Positions 22,888-63,573 of a stretch of 64,000 nt of DNA are shown here, piece after piece. Source of the DNA: Galaxea fascicularis. Lineage: Eukaryota; Cnidaria; Anthozoa; Scleractinia; Euphylliidae. Below the pieces are notes generated by a model, which did not search any database, was not told the DNA's origin, and was given only the letters and a program-made list of their open reading frames with translations. The translations under genes were made by a program, and so were the position numbers. The stretch's first letter is position 1; each line of letters starts with the position of its first letter. Location: positions 4,913,538 to 4,977,537 of the forward strand of contig OX419347.1 in the NCBI GenBank assembly GCA_948470475.1, read 5' to 3'.

Positions 22888-24715
22888 TCAGGTTTTCTTC
22901 ACACTGTACACCTCATATTGATCAGTCATTGCCATATTCAAGTGCTTCTTAATAAATTCAATAATGCTCATAGGAGATACTTGTTGATTCCAAAACTGAA
23001 TCACTCTCCCAGCTCTGTTAACAAGATACTTTCCAAAGTTCCACTTTGGTACTATTTTCGTGCTCTGATAAAGATACTTGTAAAGAGGGTGAGCTTGCTC
23101 ACCAATTACTTTGATCTTTGAGAAAACTGGAAAGTTCACATTGTACTTATTTTTGATAAATCGAGCAATGCCACTGTTTCTTAAGGGCTCCTGATTGCCA
23201 AACTGATTACATGGGAATGCAACAACACTGAAGTCCTGACTGAAGAGTTGAGACTGCAGTTCCACTAGCTCTTTATAATGCTGATCAGTGTATCCACATT
23301 CACTGGCAACATTGACAATCAGCAGGATCTGTGAGTATGAAACAGTGACAGAATGCATAAGTGATGACTGCATGAGGAAAACTGGATTAGTGATGTACAC
23401 TGTCCTCGGAAGGAGCATAGTACAAAATGGTGAAAAAGAAAATGATGAAAACTTAGGTGCTTGCAGTGAGTGAGTGTTGAGGTGGGTTCACAAAAATGAA
23501 AATCTCTCTATTAAAAAAAACAAAACAGAAAATTTGTATTAGACTCAGGAGGGTATAAAAGTGCTCATAATCTCAAAAAAATCAAAAGTGAGATGAAGAG
23601 AGATTTAATGTGATGTTACTTAAAATACATATCAAGCCAACAGAAGGTCAGTGAAAATTTCTAAGGATTCAGAGCTGGAGTTTCCATAGAAAAGTATGCC
23701 ACTTTATTAACTCAACTAACTTCATTGGTGGGGGATGAAATAACAAATGCCCTGTCTGTGGGTCATGGATGCCATTCAAAGAATATTTCCCCCATTTCCT
23801 ATTATTGTGAGACTGACACCAGACCAACTTCAAGTTGAAGGAAACAAAGGCTTTATTCATGAGCCATGAATTCGGAAATTCTGTTCGTATTTCATATGAA
23901 AAAAAATTTTCATTCTCTAGCTTTTTCATTCAAATCCCATTAACAAAACTCTACTTTTCCCAAGATCAATATTTTCCCATTCCCACTAAAATCCTTTCAG
24001 TGCTTTTGCAGAACAGTCGAAACTAATTAGGTTGCCTTTGTGTAAAACGACTGGCAAATGCCAAATAGGACATGTGCGTTCACATATTGTTTGACTTAAC
24101 AACAATCCTTTGTATTGCATTCATGTTTTACTACACATTTCGTTACGTTGTTTATTGTACCTCTAACAAACAGCCTATTCATCAAAATTTAATACTCCGC
24201 AAGTATGTTTCTTTTTATGTAATTTGTTTGTTGTCTATACACTTTCGTTTGCTCAAGCAGTCGTTCCTAAACTGATCAGGGATAATATTCGGTGAGGTCT
24301 GACTTTCTGTTTTTACTGCAAAAACGTTTGACATGTAGGCCGAGAATGCAGCAAATGATACCTTGCTTCAATTCGGGGCGGTTATCAGGATTGTAAAAGA
24401 GAAATCGACTTAATGGATGGGAAAAACGTGGTATTTAATTGGATAGATCACACAATTGAGCTGCTTGATTGTTTTCAATAAAATTACCACCAGATCATGA
24501 AAGAAACCCCGGAAAGAAACATAAAAAGCACACTTTGTGTTCGGTCACGCAACGCCCTCGGGAAAAACAAAGAACCTACTAACCTTTCCTTTGAACGCAC
24601 TCATCGGAACATCATTTCCATGCAGATCTTTTACAGTTATAGAATGAAAATCCATGCCTCCGACTATATTGACTCCTAAACCAACGAACAGAACCACGGC
24701 TAAGAAGAACTCCAT
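22888..24715 (-). CDS. GPx7/8-like thiol glutathione peroxidase
   Basis: Two exons, 24584-24715 (start) and 22888-23328 (stop), give 190 residues, normal for GPx7/8. Residues 1-20 (MEFFLAVVLFVGLGVNIVGG) look like a signal peptide. The catalytic set is present: Cys55 in NVASECGYTDQHY (cysteine, not selenocysteine), Gln86 in FPCNQFG, and Trp140/Asn141 in KWNFGKY. GPx7/8 enzymes reduce peroxides in the secretory pathway and pass oxidising power to protein disulphide isomerase. The C-terminus YSVKKT has no KDEL/REDL-like retrieval signal. The gene is head-to-head with CDC20. The single intron falls just before the catalytic loop. Confidence 0.92.
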
Positions 24716-24997: not shown

Positions 24998-27900
24998 ATG
25001 TCGCACTTTAGCTTTGAAACTGAAGTTAACGATCTCGTCAGACTCGACGGACCGATAAACAAAGGTCCAGCTCCACGATGGCAAAGAAAATCAACTGAGC
25101 ATCGATGTTCCAGCGCAGCGTCCTCTACTCCGCTTCGCAATTCTTCGAGGCTTAACTCTAGCAAAACTCCTAAAACGCCGAAATCACTGAAGAAAACACC
25201 AGGGAAAGCTAAGACGCCTTCCGAGGACAGATTTATTCCTAATCGAAGTGCCATGAACTTCGAAGCGAACTATTACAAGATGGTTACAGCTGATCGCGAG
25301 AATGAAGAAAATGAGTGCGCGAGCCCTTCGAAAGCAGAGTTCAGGAAAAACATGGCAGAGAATCTTGGCGGAGACCAATCGAACGCCAGGATTCTTGCAT
25401 TCAAGACAAAACCACCAACGCCTAGAGAAGGTATCTGCTTGATAAGTGAAGATGTCTAGGATTAGTCATCTTTTATACGATCAGTTTAAAAGTGTGCATG
25501 CATGCTTGCACGCTGATGTCCCAGCTGTCTTATTTAATAATCACTTTTAACAAACTTCAAACCCACCAACCGATTCCCCAAGTTATTCCGATGATGCTAA
25601 ATAGAAACAAAAACTTATTTTAAAAATTCATCGAATTTCTTAATCTGGTATAGATGGCTCTGATAAAGTGATCTATCTTTTCGCAGGCCACCTGAACGAT
25701 TTACGAGTGTTGTACAGTCAGAGTAAAACCCCTGCTACATCTACAAAGAAAAATGCCAGGCACATTTCTCAAGTTCCCGAGAGGATTCTAGATGCACCTG
25801 ATCTCATTGACGATTACTGTAAGTTTACAGTGGAGTATAAGCTAAGCTTAAGTATATTTGTTTATTTTGTTTTACCCCGTAAATAACAAAAAGAAATGAT
25901 ATGACGAACCATTTTTGGAGGAAGCCATTTCAGTGCAAGGTCAGATACGTTGTCAAGGTCACGACGCTCGTAGAGCAGTACTTTTACTGGAGACATGACG
26001 AAAGAATTTTGTGAAAAGCAAGTTATAGATTAGAGACAATCTCGATCCCTGGCTTCTTTAAATTTTGCTTAAGCAAGAACATTTTTCAATAACAATGGTC
26101 AACAGAAGACAGATCCAGGAAAAAAAAAGTTTTTTGCAAAACTGTTCTTTTGTGTAAAAACAGGTATGTGTTCTCCATTTTAGATCTTAACCTATTGGAC
26201 TGGAGTTGTAACAACCACCTTGCAGTAGCATTGGGTGGTTTTGTGTATCTGTGGAATGCCGCAACAGGTGATATCGTACAGCTGTGTCAAACTGCAACAC
26301 CTGATGCTTATGTCGGCTCTGTGGCTTGGATAAAAGAAGGCAATTACATTGCATTAGGAGACAGTGATGGTGTTGTTCAGGTCAGTACCACTCTCTCAAA
26401 AGGGCTCTACCATGTTATTTTGGTCTTGCTTAAAAATGCTTAAGCCGCTGTTACACGTTGAAACTTTTAGCTGAAACTTGTGTGCAACGGCAATCGAGAC
26501 CAGTTTCACAACGTGGTGTTACATGGTGAAACTCTCGTTTTTGTCACCACTGCAATCATTGCGACTGTTGCAGAAGTAGAAAGCGGTTCTACTTTTTGTG
26601 AAACTTGTCTCACAACAGAAGTTCAAAAAGTTTCATGAAACCTACCATGTTACACGGTGCAACACCTGCTGAAACAGGTTTCGCAACACCGTTGCACACA
26701 AGTTTCAGCTAAAAGTTTCAACGTCTAACAGCGGCTTAACAGATGTCTTGAAATTGATGAAAACCCAAAAATAATGATGGTGTTTGTTTACTTAACACTT
26801 TATTACTACACTGAGATTAAATACTGTCTTCTTCTGTTATGGATGGCAAGGGTAGAATCACTTTTTTTGAATCACTTTTTTAAATTCTCTCACTTCATCT
26901 TGATACCATGGCCAAAAATGTAGAGTGATGGAATGACTTTTCTTTCAAAAAATCAATTGAAATATTTTGTCTAATTTGGGTATGGTTAAAAGTAGTAAAG
27001 ATTAGCATTTGTGTCCTTTTTGCTGGAAAACAGGAACAAAACTTTCATCATGATAGAGCCCCTTTAAACAGACTGACCCTTTTTTGGGTGTATTTGGTTA
27101 TCACAATGGCATTATTCTCAGGGGAAAGTGAACCCCATGAATATAGCTGTCCCTCCTTATCAGCTGGAAGTGATGAAAGGTATATGGACAAAATTAAAAA
27201 TATTTAATTTCCTTCTACTCCTGCTCCCTGAAAAAAGAGAATGTTTCCTTAAGAAAGTAACATGACTTAAGTTTTGCACTCAGTGAACTAAGTATATTTA
27301 TTTGTATTCATAGTTGTGGGATGTAGAAGCTCAGAAACGTTTACGCAGCATGGCAGGCCATGCTGCTCGTGTTGGTTGCCTTTCATGGAACTCCTATATT
27401 CTTTCAAGGTAAGATAATGAAGAGACAAGGTGAGACGAAAGTCCTACTCTGTACGTTTGTTACTCTGATAAGATAAACCTCATTCTTCAATTTCTATGCA
27501 CAAGTCAAACAAGTTGGTCATAATATTATGAAACTTTGTAACAATGTGAACTATTTTGTAATGCTTTTGTTGATGTTGCCATCATACAGTACATAGAGAT
27601 GCTTTAATTTCCTAATATTACATTTCTTGTATCCCCTCTTGAGAATACAAAAGACTGAACTGAATTGCTTTCAATTGTTAATTCTTTAGTGGAAGCAGAA
27701 GTGGAGCAATTCACCACCATGACGTTCGTGTCGCAGATCATCATGTTGCTACTCTGGCCAGACACTCTCAAGAAGTGTGTGGATTGAAGTGGTCCCCTGA
27801 TGGAAAATACCTCGCTAGTGGTGGAAATGACAACCTTCTTTTAATCTGGGATGCCAGCGTGAATACAATCAGTAACAGTAATTCTCCTCTCTACACGTTC

Positions 27901-46328: not shown

Positions 46329-46820
46329 CTACAGTTCTGTCGAACACAGAGTAGTGGTGAGAAGACCATCGACAAGTCTTGTTTCTGAGTGATCATTCAG
46401 ACTGTCAAAACGTGTCTCTTGTGACTGTTCCTCTCGATAGAGGTCAAACCAAGCCTCATATCTAGCCTTTCCGCTACTTACTTCAACACACCGAGTATAA
46501 ACCAGCTGTTCCTCAACTCTCCCGCATGGAAGAGACAATTTTCGGTGGACAAGCCTCTCTTCAAGACGGACACACGAATTTGGGTTGTTTTGAGATGTCG
46601 TGCCACGTGAACTCTCCAGGTTGATTCTTGGGATATTAGTTTGTGACCTAAAACTCTCACTACTGTGGTCTTTGTCAGCTGCAGTGCTCTGTCGTCTGCC
46701 AGTTTGCTTTCTCCGGCTCACCCTTTCTTTGGTTTTCATAAGAAGTTTCCAAGTCTTCAACATAGTTTTGACTGTTGCGATAGAGCTCCTAAAGGTCTTC
46801 TCCGCTCGTATGAATTGCAT
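46329..46820 (-). CDS. STEL-tail protein 1 (unknown family, intronless)
   Basis: 163 residues from ATG at 46820 (MQFIRAEKTF) to TAG. No known domain or membrane segment is recognised. The N-terminal quarter is basic (KTWKLLMKTKERVSRRKQTG), the middle is polar, and the C-terminus is SETRLVDGLLTTTLCSTEL. The last 13 residues recur in the genes at 54939-55316 and 60449-60910. TEL-COOH fits a class I PDZ-domain ligand. No splice junction is needed, although an acceptor-like CACTCAG lies just before the tail. Function is unknown; reality as a gene rests on the shared tail and its synonymous codon differences. Confidence 0.7.
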   Translation of the reverse strand: MQFIRAEKTFRSSIATVKTMLKTWKLLMKTKERVSRRKQTGRRQSTAADKDHSSESFRSQTNIPRINLESSRGTTSQNNPNSCVRLEERLVHRKLSLPCGRVEEQLVYTRCVEVSSGKARYEAWFDLYREEQSQETRFDSLNDHSETRLVDGLLTTTLCSTEL

Positions 46821-46860
46821 GTTCAAAGATGTTTACGCTACTGAGTATGCCACATAAACT

Positions 46861-48439
46861 TCGACAGCTTTATTCCTTTGTGTTTGTTCCTGTGCCCGTG
46901 GATCTATTTTTAATAGTCACGTTCACCTATTTCTGGCATTCCACACACGTCAGTACACTCCATTAGTTTACCTATCCCCATCATGCAAACGTAAGTCCAA
47001 GAATGGTGGGAATTTGTTTGATCCCTTACCACAGGTGACACGCAACCAAAGCTTATGTTAAGAAGACTAAGGGCGTTAAATACTCGTCATGTAACTAACA
47101 AGTGAACAGGAATGAAAGCAGACTCTCTCTCGGCCTGGCTGACTTTGAATGTTGTAATTTGTTTACGATATCTCTGAAAATTATCAAAACATCGCGAAAA
47201 CGAAAGAATAGTCGCGTAATTTCTCGTTTCTCTTTATCTTTGGGTCATCGGTTTGAGGAGGTTCATTAATCAACGGTATTCCAGTGGTTGCTTTTAATAT
47301 CTAAAGCGTTCTTCGTAACATAAACAAGAAACATAAACGTGACTTCCGCTGCGCTGCCGCATGGGGAAATGAAAGGCTCCAAAATAACCAGGCTTTGAAG
47401 AACTTACTAAAAACAACAAAAAAAAAAAAATGTTAGAACTGAAACAGCGTGAGCCACGGTACGAAGTGTCTGTCAATTGGTGCGAAATGCCTTTGGGTGG
47501 AACACAGACAGGCGAATTTTCGTTTGGACTACATGTAATGTCACTTGTTAAGGTGGTGTCTGTCTTTGGGCGTTAGTTATGTGACGGCTAAAATCCTGCT
47601 TCCGAGATATGGCCGCCCACGTGCCACATTAGATGTCTGTAAGCCGGTAGTTTCGTGTGTGTTATAGAGAACGTTGCACGCTTTCAATATGAACAATTGA
47701 TGTGCCTTTTTAAAAGCCATTTGTTCTCTAACTCGAGAACGTCGCTTTCGTAACCCTTCCGACGGAATGAAAGTGTTTTACCAAGGCGTTCTGAGGACTT
47801 TGCCAGATCAGTGCGTAACCATCACGCTTCCAAAATGTTGGTAAGCTGTCTTGGGTTCCTGACCCCACTTGCTAACAAGGGATGTACCGAAAATAATCAA
47901 GCACCACACGAAAAAGAAAAAACAAAACAAAACAAAAAACGTCACTTAAGTAATTTCTAGATTCTCCTTATCTTCATTTTAATCAATATTAGAAAGCGTG
48001 TTAGACAACAGTTGAACACCCAGTTGGCTGGTGATCTCTGATAAATGATTCATTCTTCAAGTGCAAAGCAACCTTTTCGTGTTTGCATTTTCTCCCTTCA
48101 AATATACGAATTGTTTTCTATATAGCTTTCTTTCAGAAGCTATTTAATTCTGATAAAGCTGTGCCTTAAGGTAAAACTAACGACAGCGTGCTCTCTGAGA
48201 CCTGGCGAAGAGAATCAGAGTACATCACCATAAAGCTGTCTAAACACTAATTTTGAGGGCGACTATGTGTTTGTCGCGGAACCATTAATTTGAGGAAAAC
48301 CTCTCCCATCCTTTTAGATCCGTAGAGATAAGAGTGACCGAGCAGACTCGTTCATGGTTTTAACCATGATTAAAATCATGAAAAAATTTTTTTTCAGGTC
48401 TTTGAATAAATCTAAACCACGAAGCGCTACACACGACTT
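46861..48439. other. Gene-poor stretch
   Basis: Upstream flank of STEL-tail gene 1. Poly-A and (AAAAC)n tracts at about 47417-47430 and 47908-47940; no coding exon recognised. Confidence 0.45.
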
Positions 48440-48860
48440 TCGATGACAACTGTGACGGCCGTTCAAATGAAACTGAGCAGTACTTTCCTGTGGTGCTGGT
48501 TATTACGTTGTACAATGTGGTTCTAAGTTTTGAGGCTGTGAATGAAATCAATTCTTAAGTGTGAACATTCAAATCTGAAAGCTACTGAGCAGTTCTTTCC
48601 TGTGGTGCTATTTATTATGCTGTACAAGGTGGTTCTAGCTGTCAGTGTGTGGGTGAAAAAAGTGTGACCGTTCAAAGCTACTGAGTAGCATTTTTCTGCA
48701 CATGGTGCTGCATGAATTATTTTGTTGAAGACGATTTTAATTTTCGAATCTGTTGGCAAAATCCAAAATGAGACCATTCAAATGAAAACTATTGAACAGC
48801 GCTTTTCTGGGCGACGTTTACTTTGCTGTACACATTGGTTTTAGCTCCTCAATTTTGTGG
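48440..48860 (+). repeat. ~105-bp tandem repeat block, array 1
   Basis: Four diverged units starting near 48449, 48559, 48660 and 48768, with consensus words AGTGTGACCRTTCAAATGAAA, GCTACTGAGCAGTACTTTCC, TGTGGTGCTG and TATGCTGTACAAGGTGGTTC. The same units, same orientation, occur at 61385-61760 and 62725-62995. Confidence 0.85.
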
Positions 48861-50451
48861 ACAGAGTCCTTTAACTTCACTCACGTGATAAGGCGGCCAT
48901 GTTGGTGTATTCTAATTGTTATTTTGACGAAGAAGTCTACCATGAAATTGTATTATCCTCAGCGGGCGGCGCTTCACAAAGGTATAGAATAATAAGAACT
49001 TGCAACAATTGAACTTGTAACTTGAGTCTGTCACATGTTTCGTTGTAATTTGCACGACAAACGCTACACGCATTTCGTAAAAATTATGAAAAGCAAGTAA
49101 CAATTTCAAATATCTTTTCAAATTGAAAAAAGCTACACTGTAACTTAACATAACCGAAAAGCCGGCGCTGTCTTACGACGATTTCACGATCGCGCATTCT
49201 TAGACCTCCACCGTAGCTTTAAGCTCCGACGCATGGCTATATTTTTCGTAAATCCTCGGAATTAGTTCCTCTTTACACGCAGTTGGCAAGCCTCTTTTAA
49301 AAGGTTCTTATAAGCTTACGGAGATGCTTAGATAATCCTTTGTCATACTTGCCGCATCGTCAGGTTCGTTTACGAGAGAGAACGGTGGCTGGTGATTATT
49401 AAAAGGGTTTTTTCTTGTTTAATTCACTAAGTTAATAATCATTTTGAGAAGATTTACAGACTTATTTATCCCTGCCGTGCAATTAATGCCAATACAGACT
49501 TCGTGATACTGCGTTTGTTTACCTTCCGATAGCTGCAGCAAAAAATAATCAAGGCGGCGCACCCGAAAAACGAATGCTATTCTCACGTAAATCAAATCCT
49601 TAATTCGTTTATCTGCCGTTCGATCAGATTTACAAAGCTACTTAACCACTCTTTAAACCCTAAGATCGAAATTTAAATTCTCATTTGTTGCTCCTACATA
49701 TTTTCAATAGAAGTAGTGGGGAGAAATTGTTCTAAAATCTAGCAAATTCATCTATTAATTGTGGTTCTTTTGTCGTAATTCTCGTGACCACTCTGTTGTA
49801 TAAAGCGCTGTTATTACAAGTAGAAATTTGATGCCAACTACTCTTAGGATTTTAAGGGTCAGCCTCTCGTTTCTTGTACGCCCACAACTAAACATGTACA
49901 TCAGTGAAGTACCACCAGCCGAGTCACGGCTTCATAGTATTTTCCACTCATGGCATAAAATGTAGGCTTTGAATTAACCCTGACAACGGACGTTTAAAAG
50001 CTGTATAACGCCCCATCTGACAGGTTGATATTTTTTGTTCACGTTTCACGCTAAGGCTATTACTGAAGATACGCGAGGCGAACGTGTATGGAGGGTATCA
50101 AACATATAGAAAGTCGTAAGCAAATTGGCCACTTCACCACAAATGTTAATCCAACCCGTCTTTTGAGATCCGATATTGATATAAGAGAGATGTTGTGTGT
50201 GGCCACGTTCTTATCCTGCAAGCTTTTCTAGTCTAGACAGATCAGTCTTCTAGACTTTTACGAGCTCTTTATTCATTGGACACCAGCTGTAATGATATTA
50301 ATTTTGATAATATTTGTAGTGCTTTGTTTAAAGTGGCACAAGTTCGATGTACACTTTCAAACGTGCTTTATGAATAAATTAAAACTAAGTGGTGAAATTG
50401 TGAGTACATGAAAAGGGCCACGCGGCAAATAGCGAAAGTCAGTGCCTTTGT
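48861..50451. other. Gene-poor stretch
   Basis: AT-rich sequence without a recognised exon or strong repeat. Confidence 0.4.
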
Positions 50452-50599
50452 GATTTCACTTCACTCTCCCGACCCATATAAGAACAATGATTTCACTCCA
50501 CTCTCCTGACTCATATAAGAATAATGCTTTCACTCCACTCTCCCGACCCATATAAGAATAATGATTTCACTCCACCCACCCGACCCATATAAGAATAAA
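50452..50599. repeat. 37-bp minisatellite, four units
   Basis: Units begin at 50452, 50489, 50526 and 50563 (GATTTCACTCCACTCTCCCG followed by ACCCATATAAGAATAAT). The spacing is exactly 37 bp each time. Each unit contains a TATAAGAA word. Confidence 0.9.
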
Positions 50600-50965
50600 A
50601 ATCCCCACTCTTTTGAATCCTGAGTGCTGGCTTCTTCATCACAGGTTTTGAACGCGCACTCGCCGAGTGTGCACTGCACAGTGTTGGGTAAACCGTCGTG
50701 GTCTGCCTGGGGTTCCGTTTTGGGGACTAGAATCTAAGACCTGCTGATCATGTGATGGTAGCTTTTATAACGTTTTGTGGTAGATCACAGGGAGAACAGA
50801 CCACGCTCTCTCTCCCTTCTTCAACAAGACTTATACAAGGAGATGAGGGGACGGGTTGGATGGTTTTAGTGTACTTGAACCCAGCTGGACTGTTCGTGGG
50901 ACTAAAGGTGGTAGTTTCTAAACAAATAGTGGTGCTGTGTCGGTGGGGCAGTTGAACACAAGAAT

Positions 50966-51116
50966 AGACAATATATTCGCATTCTCGGTATTGAACTGGA
51001 TCTAGCATGAAGTGGAGGCTCTTGCGGGAAATACAAAAACATATGAAAAGATTCCCCCCTAACAGCCTCCACTTCATGCTAGATCCAGTTCAATACCGAG
51101 GAAAAGAATATTGTCT
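50966..51116. mobile_element. 151-bp foldback element
   Basis: AGACAATATATTCGCATTCT, TCGGTATTGAACTGGATCTA and GCATGAAGTGGAGGCT are mirrored at 51045-51116, arms of about 60 bp. Confidence 0.8.
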
Positions 51117-51167
51117 AACTTAACGAACGTTTTTCTTTCAACTAATTTATTCCTATTTTTCACGTTG

Positions 51168-51330
51168 CCATGTTACCACCAATAGTGCAGCTCCTCCTCC
51201 ACTATATAAACTACACACAGCCCACAATTCCTCGTTTCGCTCTGACGAAGGGCTAACACTCGAAACGTCAGCTTTTAGAATCCCTGTACGGTGGTCAATT
51301 TACATTACTAACTCGGTTGATTAAACCAAA
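51168..51330 (+). repeat. Dispersed repeat family R3, forward copy
   Basis: Contains ACCAATAGTGCAGCTCC, ACTATATAAACTACACACAG, CCACAATTCCTCG, CTCTGACGAAGGGCTAACAC, CTCGAAACGTCAGC and GTTGATTAAACCAAAT. The same order is found on the minus strand at 63095-63315. Confidence 0.75.
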
Positions 51331-52202
51331 TTTTTGTGTTCATGAGGTTGATAGTTTTATCTCGCCGCACAATGATTGTATCAGTGTGTACAAAGGCTTT
51401 GAGGCTGCCGAGACAGGAAACCGACAGGACTCGGATATATTACGAGGGAGGTTTTGGCGAAAGCAGTTTAAAAGACATTTAAACGTATTTGTCAAATAGG
51501 TCAGAACTTTCACCGACCTTCACCGTAATGTAAGTCGTTTTGAGGCGAAAATGATCGATAAATTCGTCTTTGGTTGTTACACATATTTCTAGCTGTGATA
51601 TGGTCGAAAACGCAAATAAGCGCAGATAATAAGTGGTCACATTGCTTAGGTCTTTTTCATTTCCACCAGAGCAAAGGACCCAGAATACAGCATGTAATAG
51701 TCATGTCTCTTCTCTGTCCTAATAGTCTCGTGAGTGGTTATTGGTACCGAAGAGCATCGAAGGAACCGACATTTTTCTTGTGTATCGATATTTTCCGGAG
51801 AGAATATCGATATACATGATACACTTTGCTTTACCGTGTCCACCACGTGAAGCAAAGTCTGCGGTTTGTTTTTCATCCCAGTTATCTTCAGTGGGTATTG
51901 TCTTCACTTTTTCTGCCTGTTGCCATGAATATTTCCCGTAACCCTTCAATGTTTACAAGGTTATTAAACTTAGCTGTCAAGATAAACGACTTAGCATAAA
52001 TTTAGTCTAAACGTAACAGTAATTTGTAGGTGCAAATCCTCTTATTAAGAATTTCTCATAATTGCTTCAGAATTGTCTGAAGTTTAAAAACATGCTTCGA
52101 TATCAAGTTGGTTCAGTACCATCTAACTGGCGAGGGTGGTCCTAATACAGACCCCATGTACAGCTGCTACCTGGTGGTATCGAATATCAGGTAATGTCAA
52201 AA

Positions 52203-52330
52203 CAAATGAAAAATTTGAGCCCTTCCCCCCTCCCCCCCTCCCCCAATTTCAATGTTTGCACGCGAAGTCATCATTGACAGGAGTCGTATGACCTGGGGGG
52301 TGGGGGAAGGGAGCTTTTATCTTTCATTTT
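52203..52330. mobile_element. Inverted repeat with C/G-rich arms
   Basis: AAATGAAAAATTTGAGCCCT plus a C-rich tract is mirrored by a G-rich tract and AGGGAGCTTTTATCTTTCAT. A separate poly-G run lies at about 52425-52442. Confidence 0.5.
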
Positions 52331-52442
52331 ATTCTGTCCAAGACTGTAGCTTGCACTGATCGTTTGGCAAGCAGTAAATAACGGTTATTCAAGAACCTAC
52401 CGAGGTAAAAGACTTGGCAATGAAAGGGGGGGGGGGGGGGGG

Positions 52443-54938
52443 TTTGCAAATTAAAAGCTAAATGTTGAGTAATTCGTTGGTGTTAATCCTCTTAATAAGG
52501 ATTTGCTATAGTTGAAACAAAACAAAATTGTCTGAAATTCAGCAGTCACGAAATAGTACTTTAAAATAGTTTAAAGTGTTCAGTGATGAGTCAGTTTGGC
52601 GTGATCCTCCCGCTCAGTGAAGTTTTGGGAAAGGAACTGTGTGTTTGGTTACAATGATCGTAGATATCCGGCTTAACTGGCTACCGTTTCAACGTTTGGT
52701 CTGACTCAAAATTCAAAATTGAGAAATATGTTTTACGACCTGGCGAAGAAGGAATGTCGGGATCGGGATGCTTTACAACTTAACGTTTAAATGGAGAGTA
52801 ATTTGTTGATGGTAATTCTGGCGCGTTATAATTACCTCAGGGCTGGAAATTGTGATTGAAATTCAACAGTCACGAAAATGTTTCGTAGGGCTAATAATAG
52901 TCAATAATCATGTTGATGTAGCCTCAGGTGATAGCTGAAACAAAAAATGAAGTTTTAACGTTTTCTTTGGTTATGAATCTGTTTCAAAAAGCGGGTTTGG
53001 AATTTATCCTCCGTAGAACATTTCCGTGTCATTCCACAAGGAGACACGAGGCCGCAATAACACTGTACACTTGTAGAAATTGCATTATAAATCAAAATTT
53101 TGCTAATGTCCGGTAATGTTGCAATTTTCCACTCCAGAACCATCAAAGCATAACATCAAAATACGTTACCTTTCAAGAACGAAAAACACTGCTTCTCGTC
53201 ATTAGTTTGGGTCAGTTTGTGTGTGGCCTCACTGATAAAACTCTGAAACTGGTAAGGTAGATTTGCATCCCAAAACTAAGGATGTTGAAGTAAAGGAAAT
53301 GTCTTAGTATACTTTTCTAAGATCTTGTTAACGATATTTTCAGTACATTGGTAGCTTTGGTCGGTCATTAAGGTATTTGATCGAAGCACTTCAAAAAGGC
53401 TGTCTTCTTGATAAGTCAGGTCAGTCAGGCAGATAACGGAATTTATCTACCTTTACGTCGTGCTTCAACATTTATTTCGCATGTTTTGTCAGTGAAAGCG
53501 GTCTGTTATCAGGAGTTGACTGTTGACCTGTGCCAGTTATCACTTCTTCTACGCTATTTTTGCTTCTCATTAAAGCCTTTGTCAGTTTTCGTGTTTCTCG
53601 ATCGTTGTGTGGTTTCCGTGACAAAACTGGAAGTTGTTTAATGCTTTCTACTGTAGTGAGTAAGAAATAGAAAGGAGACGCTTCAGTGGGATGAGGCACT
53701 AGAGAGATCCACTTATCAACAAAGCGTTCGGCGGCAGACTGCCTGTGCCACTCAGGAACAAAAGCAATCACACGAACACAAACTCCTTTTGCTGTGGACT
53801 AGTTCGTTTTGAAGACATTACACACCGCTTGTCATCTCATAATAGCCAAAGATACTACTAGACATATTTGAAAACTAGACGTGATTTATCGTTCACTTGT
53901 GGACAGAAGAGGACCAAAATGGAACAGGAACGTTTCGAGAACGATTATATAACAAAGCCGCTTGAAGCTACCACAAAGTGGGTTTTCAATCGAAGGGAGA
54001 CTACCATAATTCAAACAGATACATTTGGCAAGATTACGGGTGTTATCAAAAGTATTACTTTTTTAGTAAAAATCTTTGAAAAAGTATATTTGGACGGTGC
54101 CTCAATGAATTTTATAGGAAAAGGGTAGTTATTTCTGATTGAGGATCCGGTACCCAAAACAGTGAATTACACGTCAATAGTCAATCCCACGGCTTTGGGA
54201 CTTTGCCAGACTGCTTTTTTCAGCCGCAAATTGCAGCCACGCAGTTTACAATCTTATTAGTATGAATACTAGGATCAACAGAGGTGCCCCCAGAACAGAA
54301 TAAGTTATAGACCATCACACCGGGGACTACTTCCATTTTGCTAGGCAAGCAACTGTATCACTAAAGTATAACTGAACAGAATTTCTTTAACGTGAATAAG
54401 TTCACGGGAAAGCAAACAGCTATCACAAAAATGTCATTTACTAAGCTAATTTTGTTTAATTACAACCTTGGTTTTCTATGTAGTGTTCATCGTAAAACGT
54501 CGAATTTTCGAGTCTTTATGTACAAAATTCCATAAGTGAAAGGACCTAATTTGTTTTTTGAAAATTCCAAAATTGTTTCTAAATACCGGCATTGCATAAG
54601 ACATGTACACCTTGAAATGATATATAAAAAAAAAGTTGTTTTACAGATAAAAATACATTGATACTGGCTGTTAATAAATTGTTCATCATTCAATTGTTCC
54701 TGTACGTGTCTTTTACCCAGTCACAGTTCATTGCTAAAGGTGTTTAAACTGTTTGCGTACGTGTAGATTTCATTTTCTTACCGCCGCGTTCAATCTAAAT
54801 TCGTACATCTTTATTTCCTACTCGTGATGAGTGCGCTAGTATGCCTGACTATTCACATCCTTTGCTATCCAGCATCTGATTGACTCTCAGTGTTTGTTAC
54901 AAATTTTGTTCTGGGCTGGTTAAGACGCAATACGTTTT
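52443..54938. other. Gene-poor stretch
   Basis: Open frames up to 99 codons exist (for example 53472-53771, minus) but none has the STEL tail or a recognised domain. No introns or exons are assigned. Confidence 0.4.
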
Positions 54939-55316
54939 TCACAGTTCCGTAGAGCACAGTGTCGTTGTAAAAAGTCCATCAATAATTTCCGTGTCGACTT
55001 CTATCTCGGTCAGTGATTTTGCTTGTCGTGGGGTGGGTCGTACTGGTGTGCGTCTAACCAATTCATCGGGGGTCGATGAGTGCCTTCGTTTTCCAAGTAT
55101 CTTCTTTAGTTTGCTTTCTTTCGTAACCACGGACTTTTCCTTCGTTATCTTTTCGTGTGCTGTTGTTGAGTCCACTGAGCTATTTTCCGTACCAGCATTG
55201 ATTGAACGTTTTAGTGTGACACAGTTCTCTTCAGAGAGCGACATGGCGAAGATACCGTGTGATACGGTCAACATGGCAGATTGAGTTGGAGACATAATTG
55301 ATCCTTTTGACTTCAT
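54939..55316 (-). CDS. STEL-tail protein 2 (unknown family, intronless)
   Basis: 125 residues from ATG at 55316 (MKSKGSIMSPTQ) to TGA. The body is Ser/Thr- and Lys/Arg-rich and looks disordered; there is a basic stretch KLKKILGKRRHSSTPDEL and a Pro/Arg stretch VRRTPVRPTPRQAK. The C-terminus is VDTEIIDGLFTTTLCSTEL. Against gene 1, eight of the last 13 codons differ, seven of them synonymously (the eighth is Leu/Phe). A class I PDZ ligand is inferred from TEL-COOH. No known family is recognised. Confidence 0.7.
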   Translation of the reverse strand: MKSKGSIMSPTQSAMLTVSHGIFAMSLSEENCVTLKRSINAGTENSSVDSTTAHEKITKEKSVVTKESKLKKILGKRRHSSTPDELVRRTPVRPTPRQAKSLTEIEVDTEIIDGLFTTTLCSTEL

Positions 55317-56490
55317 CCTCTGCAGTTACCACCGAGATACCGAGAAACACTTAAGACGAATGCAAAACAACTCTGAACTCTTTCCGACTTGGTGGCGTCT
55401 AGACTTGGCCGGGGACTCGAAGATCCTTATGTTAGGTGCGTGTCCTTTGGTCCTTTTGAAAGGTTTGCGCTTTTAACGCGAATTGCGATAGTTTTCGCTC
55501 AAGAGAGTTTGATCGTTACCACACGCTAATGATTTGTGTGATTTTTTAATCTTTGGCATATCATATCATTTAAGTTGTTTGCAAAACATCAAAGCTCTTT
55601 TGTTCTGTTTTTAGTGATTGAACAATTACTCCACACATCTGTCACAATTACTGAAATCAAAAATAGATCTTCATTAGCGCATTGCATTGTGTCGGTCATG
55701 CTTTATACTTTCCAGAAAAACCACTCGCAAAAAATTCGCCACCTAATGTCAGACTGGTTTTGCCGTATTTTTTATTATTGTCAAGACTTGATATCGAAGT
55801 TATCTACCTGGGTCAGAGGCTTACATTAAATAACTTTCTTTTGAGAAACATATGTTCTCGTCTTGCAAACACACCAATGGTGTTTTGTAAATCTTTTTAG
55901 TTGTAATTTCCGGTCATTTCATCTCGTCTTATCTGATTGAACTTACTAATCGCAGTGTGTACAATATCGCAAATAATGTACCCGTGGCACGCTATCTGGG
56001 GCCACTTTTCCAACTCATAGATTACTTAGTCTCGAAACGAAGGAACATATTTCACATAGGTCTTAACTCATAGGATGGAAAAGCCAGGCCAACTGCCAAG
56101 CGGAAAGATTCTTATGGATTCATTACCGTGCCTTTATGAACTAGACATTTTGCACGCTCTAGAAGAAATTAAAGGAAGTGTTCTCTCCACCAAGGCTTTT
56201 ATTGTTAAGTCGAGTTTCGTCTCCGAATACACCTCAGTATTGAACTATGAAACTGAAAATCATTCTGTTCGTGTTATAGCTTTGCGCACCCCGTGGGTAC
56301 CTCTTGAATTTGACCTTTCTCTCTTTCAGTCTCGGATGAAAAAAGGTTTTACGTACTGCCTCGCCGATTTTCTTTTATTGTTTAACTGAACTGTTACGAC
56401 TCATTGATTCGCTAAATCAGTAAAATTGTAAGATCGTTTCTGTTTTGTTTACATGCAAAGGGCGCCTTGGTTGAAATAGATCTGCTTTTT
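55317..56490. other. Gene-poor stretch with one unplaced open frame
   Basis: An ATG-initiated frame at 56075-56389 (+, 104 codons) has mixed composition but no recognised domain, so it is not called as a gene. Confidence 0.35.
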
Positions 56491-56704
56491 TAACCCTTTA
56501 ACTCCCAGAGCTTATCAGCATATAACTTCTCCTTATAATATCAATACATTGTCCAGCAGATAGGTGATGAGAATACCCAAATGTATCAGTCAGAGGGTGT
56601 TATCTTGATGTAACCCTAACTTCTCTTAACTAATGTACAAGGAACTGTATAGCAGCTAGAAAGGAGAATCAATAATCAGATCTTGGAAGTTATAGCGTTA
56701 ACAT
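56491..56704 (+). repeat. Dispersed repeat family R2, copy 2
   Basis: TAACCCTTTAACTCCCAGAG ... CTCCTTATAATATCAATACA, GTCAGAGGGTGTTATC, GAATCAATAATCAGATCTTG. It matches 63574-63752 directly and 34526-34690 in reverse. Confidence 0.75.
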
Positions 56705-59700
56705 TGACACCTTACTCAGAGAAAATCATTAGAATACTTTATTTCAATCAGGGAGGCTTCACCAAAGTAATCCACACTGCAGGAAGTCACACCATAGTCT
56801 GACACACATTTGGATTTTGTCCATGTCCAGAAAAGTACAAAGCAGCTTAAACAATAAAGCACGAACTTCACATGAACTGAGAACTGTTTTTACCATGAAC
56901 ACCATAACTTAATCACAAACTTAAGTTGTTGATGAGGACCATTTTACCTTTAATTAATGACACCTTACATGATAGCTACTGTTCGTAATCCACTATCAAC
57001 AATTACGGTTTGGTAAAATGTTAACACGGCAGATACATCATCTCAACTCCTGCTTTCCAAATTTAATTCGCATTCAATCGGAGTCCAGAAGCTTCTGTCG
57101 ACACTTAACCCATTTCGATTATTCATCAATCCGAAGTTATACGCATGCACTGTCGGGGGTGGACGTGTTTTCAGTGGCCTATCACCAACTCGAGGTAAAA
57201 CGGGACTGTACATTTTAAATATTGGATTAACTGCAGAATAAGCTCCAAAAATAGATTCCCGAAACCATATTTAGAAACAGCTCTTGGAGATCTCAAAGTC
57301 GATGAAATACGGCAAACTTCCGACAAGCGACAGAAACTGTTCATTAGAATAAGATCTCTACAAAACTTTACTCTTTTACCAACTCAGTGGTTTGTCATTT
57401 AATCCTATACTCTACAGAGGTAATTTTTTTCAAGCACTCTGGTTTTCTTCCTTCTGCAAAAACCAGCATGCAGCCTAATTCCAACTGACTGTGCGGGATT
57501 TGATCTCTGGAGAAAATGCATTGCAAACAGTTGGGATCCACGTCTCCTATGATGAGAAAGAAAACAATTAACCTTCGAAAACTACAAACTAACCTTGGTA
57601 TGTGGAGGCAAGGGATTTCATATGGTTTGGAAGGGTGATGGAAATCAGTAAATCTTAGGGATTGTCACAATTGACTATTCACCTGTGTGGTATATACGAA
57701 AGAGTTATATTCTGAGAGTAATCTTAGTCTACACTACTGAACAAACGTAAATATGAAAAATGACTTCTCCTTTGTTCTCATTCCTTTTCTTTCCTCTTCC
57801 CTTATATTATTGTATTATTTTGTTTATTTTTGGGAGGGGAGCGTGTGGCGGGGAATTGGATGGATTGTACGTAGAATCACTTGTAAATCATAGATTGAAA
57901 ACTTAGGTTAAATAAAAAATATGGCTGCAAGCTTTGCTCCAAGGTCATTCGTGGACCCCCTTCCCACCTGTTGTTATTACACATACGTTCTGCGCAAATT
58001 AGGAAAGCCCGAAATGCCAGGTCAACTTATGGACGGTTCTAACTCAGATAGAAAAGCAGTTCTTATCAAAGACTATTGTCCAAAAGGAATGTTGCAGGCT
58101 AAGACAAAGCAAGCACGCAGTTTTGGGGATAATTTAGCTTAAGAAGCGTTTTTCTTTTCAATTCCTATCACCCCCATCTAAGATTTACTTTTGCAACACA
58201 GGTATAAACCGCGATAAATACCTCTGTATTAGGAAGCTAATTTGCAAGGCTCTCTTATAATTTGCACCTTTTAATACTTTTATTTCCATTGTTTCCACCT
58301 GATTTCATTTCAGTGTTCTGCTATTTCCTTGTGTCACGGAACCATGTTTTTGTCTCAGTGAGCATTGAAGGAGAACTTTGAATTAGCTAAAACTGAAGTG
58401 TACAAACGTTTTGCCAGGCTTGCGCTGCGAAACTGCATTTATATCGAGTTAACCACAAGTTTTAGCTTGATCCTCATTTTGTGAGCTTGTATACGTTCGA
58501 ACTTTTCCTTCGCTGTTCTCTTTTTTGTCACACTACCCACATTCGCACAAATCATAAAGTCTACCATTGTATTTCTCTTTGGATGATCTGTTCCAAGGCC
58601 GTTGCTGTTCGTAAATTTTTCCGTTGTCAGGGGGTTTCTTTCCGTCGTAAATCGTTACTTACAATGTGCTAGAATTTCTACTGCTATTAAAAATAAGTAA
58701 TAGGACAGATTGGGCTTTAAGACAGCTTTGAAGAAATCCCTTGAGGCCAGGAAATAATTGGCTTTTAAAATTCAATACGCACAAATTCGTCACGTGTAGT
58801 CAGCACGTGCTGGACGACAAGAACCATAATTCATGAAGGGTGGTGGTAAAACTCCTGAGTTCCTTAACTGTGGAGATAAAAACCAACGCTACTCATTCTC
58901 AGAAATCAGGGAGCCAAAAAAACAAGAGGGAAAAATGTAGAGAGAGAGAGAGAGAGAGAGAGCAGAGGTGAAGGAACGAAGGAAGAAAGAAGAAATGAAA
59001 AAAAAAAAAAACTAAAGTAAGAGGTGAATGATCATGAAGATGCATGGAAGAAATGAAGAGGGAAAGGCGCCAGTGACAAAAACTGAGGAACACAAGCTTT
59101 CGATTCGAGTTTTGATTGATCAAATCCGGCCCTTAGAATTTGCCGTACATACTCGCTTAACAGGCCGTAGGCTCGTACTACGACCTCAAAACCAAAGTTA
59201 GCAGACAAAGTGTGTTGTAAACCTAATACCAGGAAATAAAATAAGAAAAAAAGGCTGATAACTTGTTGAAAAAAGCTTGCGCTTTATTTGGCGGCACAAG
59301 AACAAGGCCATTATGAAAATCCAGGCAATCATTAGTGATAAAACAAAGAAAGTTGATCTTCGCGGTTGTGAACGCAATTTATGCAGGCAATTGCGTGAAG
59401 AAGCCTGAAAATTCAGCACTTCCCCGTTGAAGTCCTGATTATTTTTCAGGTTTCTTTACGCAACTGCATAAATTGTGTTCACAATTGCGAGGATCATTCT
59501 TTATTTGACTTCATTTCTGTAGTTCATTTATGATTTATTTCATATATATCATTCATATTCACAATACCTATTTGTTTGTGCAGTCGCACCAATTTGTACC
59601 TTGTTAAAATGTGGTTTAATGTATGAAAACCAATCTTGTCTACTTATGAGTACTTATGTTTATTGCACGGAGATAAGTTACGTCGGCACGTGCTCATACC

Positions 59701-60317
59701 CCAGGCTGCTGGTTTGTTTTCATTTTTTTTGGTAAACTAATGCTTTTCAGAAGGTATGTTACGTAACAAAAAGCTTCTTCACACAATAAAATTTGTGTAT
59801 GAAACAATGGCTTTCAGCCTTCACACGTAACCACAAATGTGAACTAATGGCACACCGCGAAAAGTGCTCTATCAACACTTATGCGTGCTGTGAACTAACA
59901 CACCGCCTTGCTTCCGACAGGTTAATATAGTTCTCGGGCATGCATACCAATCAGACACGTATACCACGGCGATACGACAATTGCCTCTAATGGCTCCTCG
60001 GGCGATAACAGGGTGATATAACTTTTGAAATAATCTTTAATTGCTTCGCTAATTAAGTTTGAAAAAGTAACAGCCGACTCTTCAATGGCGTTTCGTTTTC
60101 AAGAATTATGAAAACAGTATTCCGTGAACGTTGGGCCGTGATTTCATAGAAGTGCAAAGTCCAATTTTTTTTTCCTCAGTAAAAAAAGAACAAAGCGTGT
60201 GGTGTTTCAGGCGGCAGAATGGAGCCTATTCAAATGTCCAAATGAATTAGCGGCTCTCTATTATGGTAACGCTAATTGAGTCTGACAGGTTTTGGGAGCT
60301 GATGATCCGTGGAAGAA
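56705..60317. other. Gene-poor stretch
   Basis: An (AG)n microsatellite at about 58938-58961 and purine-rich sequence around it. Short open frames (57921-58142 +) are unrecognised. No exon assigned. Confidence 0.4.
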
Positions 60318-60370
60318 ATCAAGCCGATTCTATCCACGTGTCATGCTCACGTGGATAGCATCGGCTTGAT
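60318..60370. repeat. Hairpin just upstream of STEL-tail gene 3
   Basis: Arms of 23 bp, ATCAAGCCGATTCTATCCAC and its mirror, one mismatch and a 7-nt loop. Each arm carries CACGTG/ACGTGG. It ends 78 bp before the ATG at 60449, so it is either a MITE remnant or part of the promoter/leader. Confidence 0.7.
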
Positions 60371-60448
60371 GGGTAAACATTGCGTGAAATGCAACCGTAT
60401 GTCGACAAGTAAACCAGCGAATCTAAGTTCTTGGATTATTGCCTAAAG

Positions 60449-60910
60449 ATGACGAAGGAAGGCTTAAAACGCCGGGTTTCGGAAGGGATCATTAAACTGG
60501 GACGTGGGCTGAGTTGTGTGCAACCTCAGGCGTTACCTGACCAGGATAGGAATTGCGACCCAGAAGGCGTAATTGCCAACACTAAAGAGGTTGCAGCAAC
60601 TGAACAACAACCAGACTGTCTGAGAGAAGACGAAGTGAAGGAAATGCTTGAAACTTTCGAGCCCCAAAGAATATGTAGAAGCATCTCTTTTACTGGTTTT
60701 GGCGTTCATGACATGCAGAGGGTACGACGAATCGCCGAGGGTTGCTGCTCAAACGAAGACCCTGGTTCGGTTGTTACCGAACAACGGAACAGATGTCATT
60801 CATTTGCAGGGGTTAAGAACAAGAAGCTAGTGAAGATCACACGGGGATCGCACGAAACGACTGTCATAGATGGGTTGCTTACCACAACGTTCTGTTCCAC
60901 CGAACTTTAA
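60449..60910 (+). CDS. STEL-tail protein 3 (unknown family, intronless)
   Basis: 153 residues from ATG at 60449 (MTKEGLKRRVSEG) to TAA. Composition is mixed and polar, with cysteines (EGCCSNED) and basophilic-kinase-like sites RICRSIS and RNRCHS. The C-terminus is HETTVIDGLLTTTFCSTEL. Against gene 1, nine of the last 13 codons differ, eight synonymously and one Leu/Phe. It is in the opposite orientation to genes 1 and 2, with a hairpin 78 bp upstream and ~105-bp tandem repeats downstream. No known domain is recognised. Confidence 0.72.
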   Translation: MTKEGLKRRVSEGIIKLGRGLSCVQPQALPDQDRNCDPEGVIANTKEVAATEQQPDCLREDEVKEMLETFEPQRICRSISFTGFGVHDMQRVRRIAEGCCSNEDPGSVVTEQRNRCHSFAGVKNKKLVKITRGSHETTVIDGLLTTTFCSTEL

Positions 60911-61384
60911 GCTAATGGTAACCGGAAAACATTTTGAACTTGGAGTAGCTGGTACAAGACTGATGAGCGTAGGTGTGAAGGAGAGAATGCATACCCTCAC
61001 CTGTGATATAAGAAAAGACGTATCCAGAGTGAAGGACAAATACGGGGCTTCCCAATACCTTGACGATATTGCGATGCAAAGGAAACGGATTAGTTCTCGG
61101 GTCTAGCAACAGGCTGCATAAGGTAGCAATGGACTCCACTGCTTGCTGGGCAAGTTTCAAAGATAGGTTGCGGATAATTGTCAGGGTATTATCAGATAAC
61201 TACGCTTTTGGACATTGTTGAAAGTTTAAACGAAAAATCTGCCTGAACTGCGTAGTTAAAGATCTTGCAGGTGGCTCTTGGTTTTGACTACTAGTGTAAG
61301 GGGCAGGAGTCAATCGACGGCTGTTGAGAGTTATTCTCATGTCGTGGTGTCACTGCTACAATGTTAATAGTAGCTCTTAACTAT

Positions 61385-61760
61385 TGAAGTGATGGGTAAA
61401 ATCCTAAAGTGTGACCATTCATATGAAAGCTACTGAGCAGTACTTTCCTGTGTTGTTTATTATGCTGTACAAGGTGGTTCTAAATTTTGGGGTCTGTGGA
61501 TGAAATCTTTAAGTGTGACCGTTCAAATGAAAGCTACTGAGTAGCACTTTCTTATGGGTCTGTTTAAACATAATGCTGTACAAATTGATTCTGACGTCTG
61601 AATCTTTAAAAGAAGTCCTTGAATGTGCCATACAGGGAAAAGTACTAAGCAGTACTTTCCTGGAGTGTACACAGTGTTGAACAATTTGTTGAACAATATG
61701 TTTTCAACTCTAATCGGCGTCTCTACAAAACTCCCTGGTTCAATCAATTCATGTGAAAAC
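61385..61760 (+). repeat. ~105-bp tandem repeat block, array 2
   Basis: About three units starting near 61408, 61512 and 61622, same family and orientation as 48440-48860. It begins about 475 bp after the stop of STEL-tail gene 3. Confidence 0.8.
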
Positions 61761-61989
61761 TACTGAGGCGACATCTCTCCCATCCTTGTTCAGTGTTTGT
61801 TTTCAGAACTGAGTTTTTGACATGAAATTTGGATCTTTCGTCAGTTTTGAATCGGAGCAATATTGGCCCTTGAATGGACGAGATAAGAGAAAAATAAACC
61901 TGCAATCATTTCTCATCAGTGACACCTTCTAAACTGTTTAAACAAGGTATTGTCAAAACATACATAAACAAACAGCCAGACTAAAACCC

Positions 61990-62034
61990 AACCTCATTCC
62001 CAGGGTCTCTCCTCTTGATCCTGGGAATGAGGTT
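61990..62034. repeat. Small foldback, second CTCATTCCCAGG copy
   Basis: AACCTCATTCCCAGG mirrored exactly by CCTGGGAATGAGGTT around 15 bases. Confidence 0.75.
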
Positions 62035-62724
62035 GACTAAACCCGGATCGCGGATACAGTATCGTAAATTGCTTTGCAGCCGGTCAGGGAATACGGTATG
62101 GCTGATAAAGAGCCGAGGGTAAATAAGTGATTTATTGTCTGCTGCCAGATACTGACACTCAATCTGTAAATATTTGTTACAACCCACCGATAAGTGTTTT
62201 TCAAGAAGCCCAACAGTTACTGTGTACACAAACTGATTGAAGCCCGCAGTGACGCTAATGATCGCAATTAATTTTCTCGCAACTCAGTTATCAATATCAG
62301 TTGAAGTATTCATTACCTCGGCTCAATTGCCTTGATTGAGAAACAATACCGAGGTCTTTGCTGAGAATGTCAGTCGGAAGACAAGAAGGAGATTCATTAG
62401 TTGTTGGCGTTTAGGTCATAAGTTATCTACTCTTTAAGCACTGATATGCTCTTTACTGTTTCCTATTTATTACGCATTATTCTAGCTGAGAGAATTCTTT
62501 TAAACATGAGGACAGTTGTGTTCGAGTAAAATAGTGCAACTGACTGAACGTTGGGAGGAACTAGCTACAGCTAGTCACAAATTCTTTTTGGCTGTATTAT
62601 CTGGCGTAATCAGTCATAAAGGCACGACACTTCCGTCAGCCAGGATATGTCTTTCTAAACTATAAACTTCCTCATGGCTTTTTGGGACGGCACCATGTAT
62701 ATATCAGACAAGGTGGCTCTAACG

Positions 62725-62995
62725 TTTGAATTAATGGGTAAAATCCTCAAGTGTGACCATTCAAATGGAAGCTACCGAGCAGTACTTTCCTGTGGTGCTG
62801 TTTGTTATGCTGTAAAAGATGGTTCTAACGTTTGAGTCTGTTTGATGAAATCATTAAGAGTGGCCATGCAAATAAAAGCTACTGAGTGGTACTTTAATGT
62901 AGTGCAGCTGTTTGTCATACTGTATGAGGTGGTTCTTTCATGGAGGAATCCCTGAAGCGCAATTATGCAAGTGAAAACTACCGACCAATTTTGTC
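62725..62995 (+). repeat. ~105-bp tandem repeat block, array 3
   Basis: Units starting near 62750, 62855 and 62955, increasingly diverged; same family as arrays 1 and 2. Confidence 0.75.
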
Positions 62996-63094: not shown

Positions 63095-63315
63095 AAGAAA
63101 CTGTGGTGCTGCGTTAGTGGGGAAGTTGTACACAAACATTTGGTTTTATCAACGAGTTCAAAATGTCATTGAGCACCGTGCATGGATTCTAAATGCTGAC
63201 GTTTCGAGCGTTAGCTATTAGTCAGAGCAAATCGAGGAATTATGGGTTGTGTGTATATAAACGGTTTATATAATGGAGATGGAGCCACGCTATTGGTGGT
63301 AACCTGGCAACGTGA
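63095..63315 (-). repeat. Dispersed repeat family R3, reverse copy
   Basis: The reverse complement carries CACCAATAGCGTGGCTCC, TATATACACACAACCC, ATAATTCCTCG, GCTAACGCTCGAAACGTCAG and GTTGATAAAACCAAATG in the same order as 51168-51330. Confidence 0.75.
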
Positions 63316-63573
63316 AAAATAGAGGTACATTAATTGAATGGAAACCGTTCGTTGATACAGTGGAGATTGAGGGTGCCAATTTGGAAGATAAATTTTTGTT
63401 CAAGAATCTTGCGATACGAGGCGATACGATAGCCGAACGTGTCACTGTTGTTCACTCAGTATTATATTATATAATATTCTATGCCATGTTTTTTTTAAAA
63501 TAATATAATAGTCCGAAAGGTTTGAGCAGTATTTTGTAGACTTTGCTATGGCCCCAATCAGTGCCGACTATCA

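Follow-up and report, generated by a model that had tools for sequence, protein, structure and literature searches.

The window analyzed, a 64-kb stretch of coral DNA (C13:4913538-4977537) taken from a 416,610,142-base assembly of 170 contigs, harbors three small genes, each with an unbroken coding frame (Table 1). The initial annotation had described three open reading frames with a common tail that finishes at the stop codon, and translation of the frames reproduced the strands, the lengths and the tails. The C-terminal ends, up to the stop codon, are VDGLLTTTLCSTEL, IDGLFTTTLCSTEL and IDGLLTTTFCSTEL for genes 1, 2 and 3, respectively. The genes had also been called intronless, which is true of the coding frames, and the database relatives match these frames over their full length. 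For gene 3, a search of the assembly gave one match, from a first pass that produced a single candidate.

Table 1. Coding frames, tails and body motifs of the three genes, in positions of the window
Feature	Position	Strand	Relatives or occurrence of the form
Gene 1 (family 1), 163 aa, unbroken CDS, stop TAG	46329..46820	-	9 database relatives
Gene 1 tail, TRLVDGLLTTTLCSTEL	46332..46382	-	
Gene 1 RKLSLP, RxxSxP-type site	46527..46544	-	R.[LIV]S[LS]P form, 7/10 of family 1
Gene 2 (family 2), 125 aa, unbroken CDS, stop TGA	54939..55316	-	30 database relatives
Gene 2 tail, TEIIDGLFTTTLCSTEL	54942..54992	-	
Gene 2 RRHSSTP	55068..55088	-	RRHS[STA]TP form, 26/31 of family 2
Gene 2 KSLTEI	55002..55019	-	[KR]SL[TS]EI form, 31/31 of family 2
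Gene 3 (family 3), 153 aa, unbroken CDS, stop TAA	60449..60910	+	35 database relatives
Gene 3 tail, TTVIDGLLTTTFCSTEL	60857..60907	+	
Gene 3 RSISFTG	60677..60697	+	R[SR].[ST]F[TS]G form, 35/36 of family 3
Gene 3 RNRCHSFAG	60785..60811	+	R.R[CS][HY]S[FY][AGS]G form, 36/36 of family 3

The region upstream of the cluster contains a glutathione peroxidase frame (22888-23418, 111.7 bits) as well as a CDC20 gene. Ten stop-to-stop frames were scanned between 26 and 44 kb; three match the CDC20 WD40 domain, and the other seven gave nothing above the curated cut-off; a stretch at 24998-25459, recognized by eye, is presumably the N-terminal CDC20 exon. Farther upstream, an unbroken frame of 656 aa (6222-8192, plus strand), with four YLG[GE] motifs close to its beginning, matched no Pfam family above the curated cut-off. 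An inverted repeat with 23-nt arms that are 96 % complementary, each containing CACGTG, is located at 60318-60370, about 80 to 130 bases ahead of the gene 3 start codon, and is possibly regulatory. Diverged repeats spaced at about 105 to 112 bases (D1-D10) occupy two stretches flanking genes 2 and 3 (48465-48814 and 61378-62940), and units of 37 bases are repeated in tandem at 50451-50598 (D7). At 51122-51299 and 63168-63353 there are longer inverted repeat arms (88 and 90 nt, 86 and 83 % complementary), which enclose genes 2 and 3 at a spacing of about 12 kb. The promoters of genes 1 to 3 have one 8-mer and its reverse complement in common, counted as two words; 200 random triples shared 6.0 on average.

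The core of the tail, DGL[LF]TTT[LF]C, was back-translated and searched for exactly in the 416.6-Mb genome. Three sites were found, all within these open reading frames, with no exact copy beyond genes 1 to 3, and the same pattern read backwards had no occurrence. Therefore, the shared core is not due to chance, and on these exact matches the end of a transposon was rejected as its source. Over their final 13 codons, genes 1 and 2 differ at eight codons (seven synonymous), genes 1 and 3 at nine (eight synonymous) and genes 2 and 3 at 11 (nine synonymous); the first two comparisons repeat an earlier count, with identical figures. These mostly synonymous differences, together with tail residues that are specific to each family, support the proposal that selection acts on the peptide, and they rule out recent duplication or gene conversion.

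Relatives were sought among 5.8 billion proteins with E values of up to 10. The search yielded 9 relatives from 19 candidates for gene 1, 30 from 35 for gene 2 and 35 from 41 for gene 3, so copies of the tail exist in other genomes for all three genes, as had been anticipated. With these 74 database relatives in three families, the tail, known to the initial annotation from the window, is not confined to it. Together with the three proteins of the window, the relatives make up a survey set of 77 proteins, 76 of which carry the tail, with the consensus T-x-[LIVF]-[VIE]-[DN]-G-[LF]-[LFM]-TTT-[LF]-C-S-[TS]-[ED]-L. The sequence of P0033, a family 3 relative annotated as a partial hypothetical protein of the stony coral Oculina patagonica, stops inside the tail, and the tail of P0044 has one additional residue; both were left out of the residue table, which holds 75 tails. 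Invariant in all 75 are T at -16, G at -11, TTT at -8 to -6, C at -4, S at -3 and L at 0, and position -2 holds T in 74 tails and S in the other. The common ending recognized before is real, and its true extent is 17 residues, longer than first reported. Other positions distinguish the families. Position -15 is R in 10/10 of family 1, E in 30/31 of family 2 and A in 27/34 of family 3, and position -9 is F in 28/31 of family 2 and L in families 1 and 3. These family-specific residues indicate that the tails parted long ago; the tail is old.

The final Leu is the exact end of the protein in 68 of 76 tails. The remaining eight (P0025, P0034, P0052, P0055, P0058, P0059, P0066 and P0073) extend beyond it by 3 to 26 residues, and in each of these the residue following the Leu is W. 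This suggests that TGA was read as Trp by the gene caller, which would account for 8/8; the alternative is a genuine stop loss to TGG. The penultimate residue is E in 10/10 tails of family 1, 31/31 of family 2 and 17/35 of family 3, and the other 18/35 of family 3 end in -DL.

To compare bodies and tails, each family was aligned separately, with 8/10 members for family 1 (A2; P0011 and P0012 omitted for weak likeness), 23/31 for family 2 (A3; six extended members omitted, as well as P0074 and P0075, which have a long insert) and 31/36 for family 3 (A4; P0025, P0034, P0033, P0045 and P0047 omitted). Mean pairwise identities of body and tail were 0.450 and 0.954 in family 1, 0.625 and 0.975 in family 2, and 0.619 and 0.872 in family 3. 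The tail is the most conserved 17-mer of families 1 and 2; in family 3 its place is taken by RCHSFAGVKNKKLVKIT (0.93). When the family profiles were compared with one another, the alignments covered 25, 28 and 27 columns with a probability of 97 %, and the aligned region comprises only the tail and the 8 to 11 residues before it. The bodies, as first described, do not align between families. The description of a fixed tag on fast-evolving bodies is too simple, as the bodies have strongly conserved motifs specific to each family.

Several of these body motifs have an Arg three residues before a Ser or Thr. The RxxS pattern, a loose motif that is frequent by chance, is present in 10/10 members of family 1, and the stricter R.[LIV]S[LS]P in 7/10. 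Sites of this spacing are kept in families 2 and 3 as RRHS[STA]TP, R[SR].[ST]F[TS]G and R.R[CS][HY]S[FY][AGS]G; in [KR]SL[TS]EI of family 2 the Arg sits further upstream than three residues. We take these Arg-Ser motifs to resemble basophilic-kinase and 14-3-3 sites. The 14-3-3 mode I site is RxxSxP, and it is not found in every family, family 3 having T/S or A/G/S at the Pro position. A BH3-like reading of an LRRIAE stretch in family 3, made by comparison with the BH3 motif, was dropped since other members have LRRN, MGRN and further forms there.

AlphaFold models of gene 3 (mean pLDDT 39.8, 31-sequence alignment) and gene 1 (mean pLDDT 47.7, 8-sequence alignment) gave no confident fold. The gene 1 model has two weak strands, at residues 146-150 and 153-157, on either side of V-D-G-L. 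The proteins are likely disordered according to these models, in which the low pLDDT may also reflect the shallow alignments of 31 and 8 sequences. A Pfam scan of the three proteins assigned no family, and searches of solved structures gave no match with the tail or with A3 and a single chance-level match with A4 (E 1.5). No relative was found in viral contigs scanned with the gene 3 protein (P0003).

The linkage of the genes was considered from the contig sizes recorded for the relatives, comparing the longest contig of each protein cluster. Sizes identical to the base are shared by P0006, P0051 and P0018 (824971), P0008 and P0054 (2044226), P0009 and P0055 (194103), P0057 and P0041 (904884), P0076 and P0046 (1376738), and P0071 and P0020 (1322462); only 824971 has all three families. 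We read these equal sizes, rather than the DNA itself, as a sign of shared contigs and so of lasting linkage, on six contigs besides that of the window. On shared contigs, whole-protein identities were loosely correlated between families 2 and 3 (rho 0.61, p 0.06, 10 non-independent pairs) and between families 1 and 2 (rho 0.77, p 0.07, 6 pairs), which neither proves nor excludes a common descent of the cluster. For its origin, we favor an old duplication after which the likeness of the bodies was lost; three frames capturing one tail also fits and is less preferred. The restriction to one lineage, which had been proposed, fits the Oculina patagonica relative P0033 but is not proven by it.

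Near-fixed tails in three families with differing bodies suggest a single unchanging surface that all three would contact, and from the sequences a single docking partner common to the three tails is quite probable. The explanation that we prefer, at moderate confidence, is that these proteins are disordered adaptors whose common docking tail at the C-terminus is plausibly an extended ligand for class I PDZ domains. Here, the three genes would form a linked cluster of long standing and encode small adaptors, probably disordered, whose tails would all bind the one partner, with the proteins competing for it or assembling on it. S-T-[ED]-L-COOH would enter a class I PDZ groove, T-x-[hydrophobic]2-D-G-L-[LF]-TTT would give a second contact, at a guess as a strand or as a hairpin with a D-G turn, and the kinase sites of the bodies, with Arg three before Ser/Thr, would recruit other partners such as 14-3-3.

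A PDZ domain is a tentative candidate for the reader of the tail. The class I rule, as stated in the accessible text of PMC4466390, asks for S/T at -2 together with a hydrophobic final residue (position 0). All 75 tabulated tails have both, and the groove fits given these two residues and the exact end in 68/76, the other eight running on with W through a gene-calling artifact or stop loss. In the residues at these two positions, and in the free C-terminus that the 68 exact ends would give it, the tail is like the class I motifs in that text (PMC4466390); unlike them, it is near-fixed over 17 residues in three families with nonaligning bodies. Since the PDZ core motif spans about four residues, constraint back to -16 is not explained by a PDZ domain alone, and the longer constraint calls for a second contact. 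Further points count against the proposed explanation: the extensions of the eight longer relatives would abolish the free end if they are real, and the body motif of family 3 is better conserved than its tail.

Another reading, which we consider unlikely, is that the tail is an internal docking or hydrophobic motif, shaped as a strand or hairpin, to which a kinase, phosphatase or transcription factor would bind, and that its free C-terminus is incidental. The constraint reaching -16, the Thr-rich stretch, the weak hairpin across V-D-G-L in the gene 1 model and the eight relatives that extend beyond the tail are all in its favor. However, 68/76 tails stop exactly at the Leu, and W in 8/8 extensions fits miscalling of TGA as Trp better than random stop loss.

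Less probable still is a C-end degron, in which -EL would be read by a DCAF12-type ubiquitin ligase that keeps three short-lived regulators scarce. In the accessible text of PMC8161014, DCAF12 binds the -EL of MOV10 and possibly other -EX ends, and all tails of families 1 and 2, along with 17/35 of family 3, end in -EL. Nevertheless, the ELM class for DCAF12 is limited to di-Glu ends, with other modes called unknown, in the accessible part of PMC10767929, and the conserved stretch here is much longer than the degron of PMC8161014, the last few residues being sufficient for such a degron, not 17. A DCAF12-type -EL degron is a possible explanation and the best C-end rival to a PDZ ligand, weakened by the penultimate Asp of the 18/35 family 3 tails that end in -DL. 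KDEL-like ER retention combines a C-terminal -EL with an N-terminal signal peptide. Retention of secreted proteins through STEL is very improbable, as is a tail that stems from a transposon end or from a segment copied recently: -EL forms the last two residues in families 1 and 2, but -DL ends 18/35 tails of family 3, the N-termini are by eye unlike signal peptides, the exact core is not repeated beyond three times in 416.6 Mb and the tail codons differ at 8 to 11 of 13 positions, mostly synonymously.

The tail strings were absent from the 5.39 million papers searched, supplementary files being outside the scope, and the entries and abstract openings listed for restricted, orphan or PDZ themes in cnidarians held no description of the tail. 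Coral 'dark' gene families have been described as conserved, without an ascribed function and, in many cases, without a confident AlphaFold model, in the accessible text of PMC13044578. Genes 1 to 3 are alike in being conserved in coral with no ascribed function and, for genes 1 and 3, no confident fold, but they differ in having a common terminal motif, none being described in that part of the source (PMC13044578).

The preferred explanation, disordered adaptors with a common docking tail, gives these coral genes without ascribed function a common, testable mechanism. A near-fixed terminal tag on three old, nonaligning families is a direct handle on the receptor, and the tail offers a test of the length that a motif for C-terminal recognition may reach. 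In a bolder and rather doubtful form, the cluster may be an anthozoan signaling module, not described before, of three linked, disordered phospho-adaptors that compete for one receptor via a near-invariant 17-residue C-terminal plug. If this is true, the plug, a hairpin or strand plus the carboxyl end, would define a new class of C-terminal recognition with a longer motif, and the three bodies of the module would give alternative outputs.
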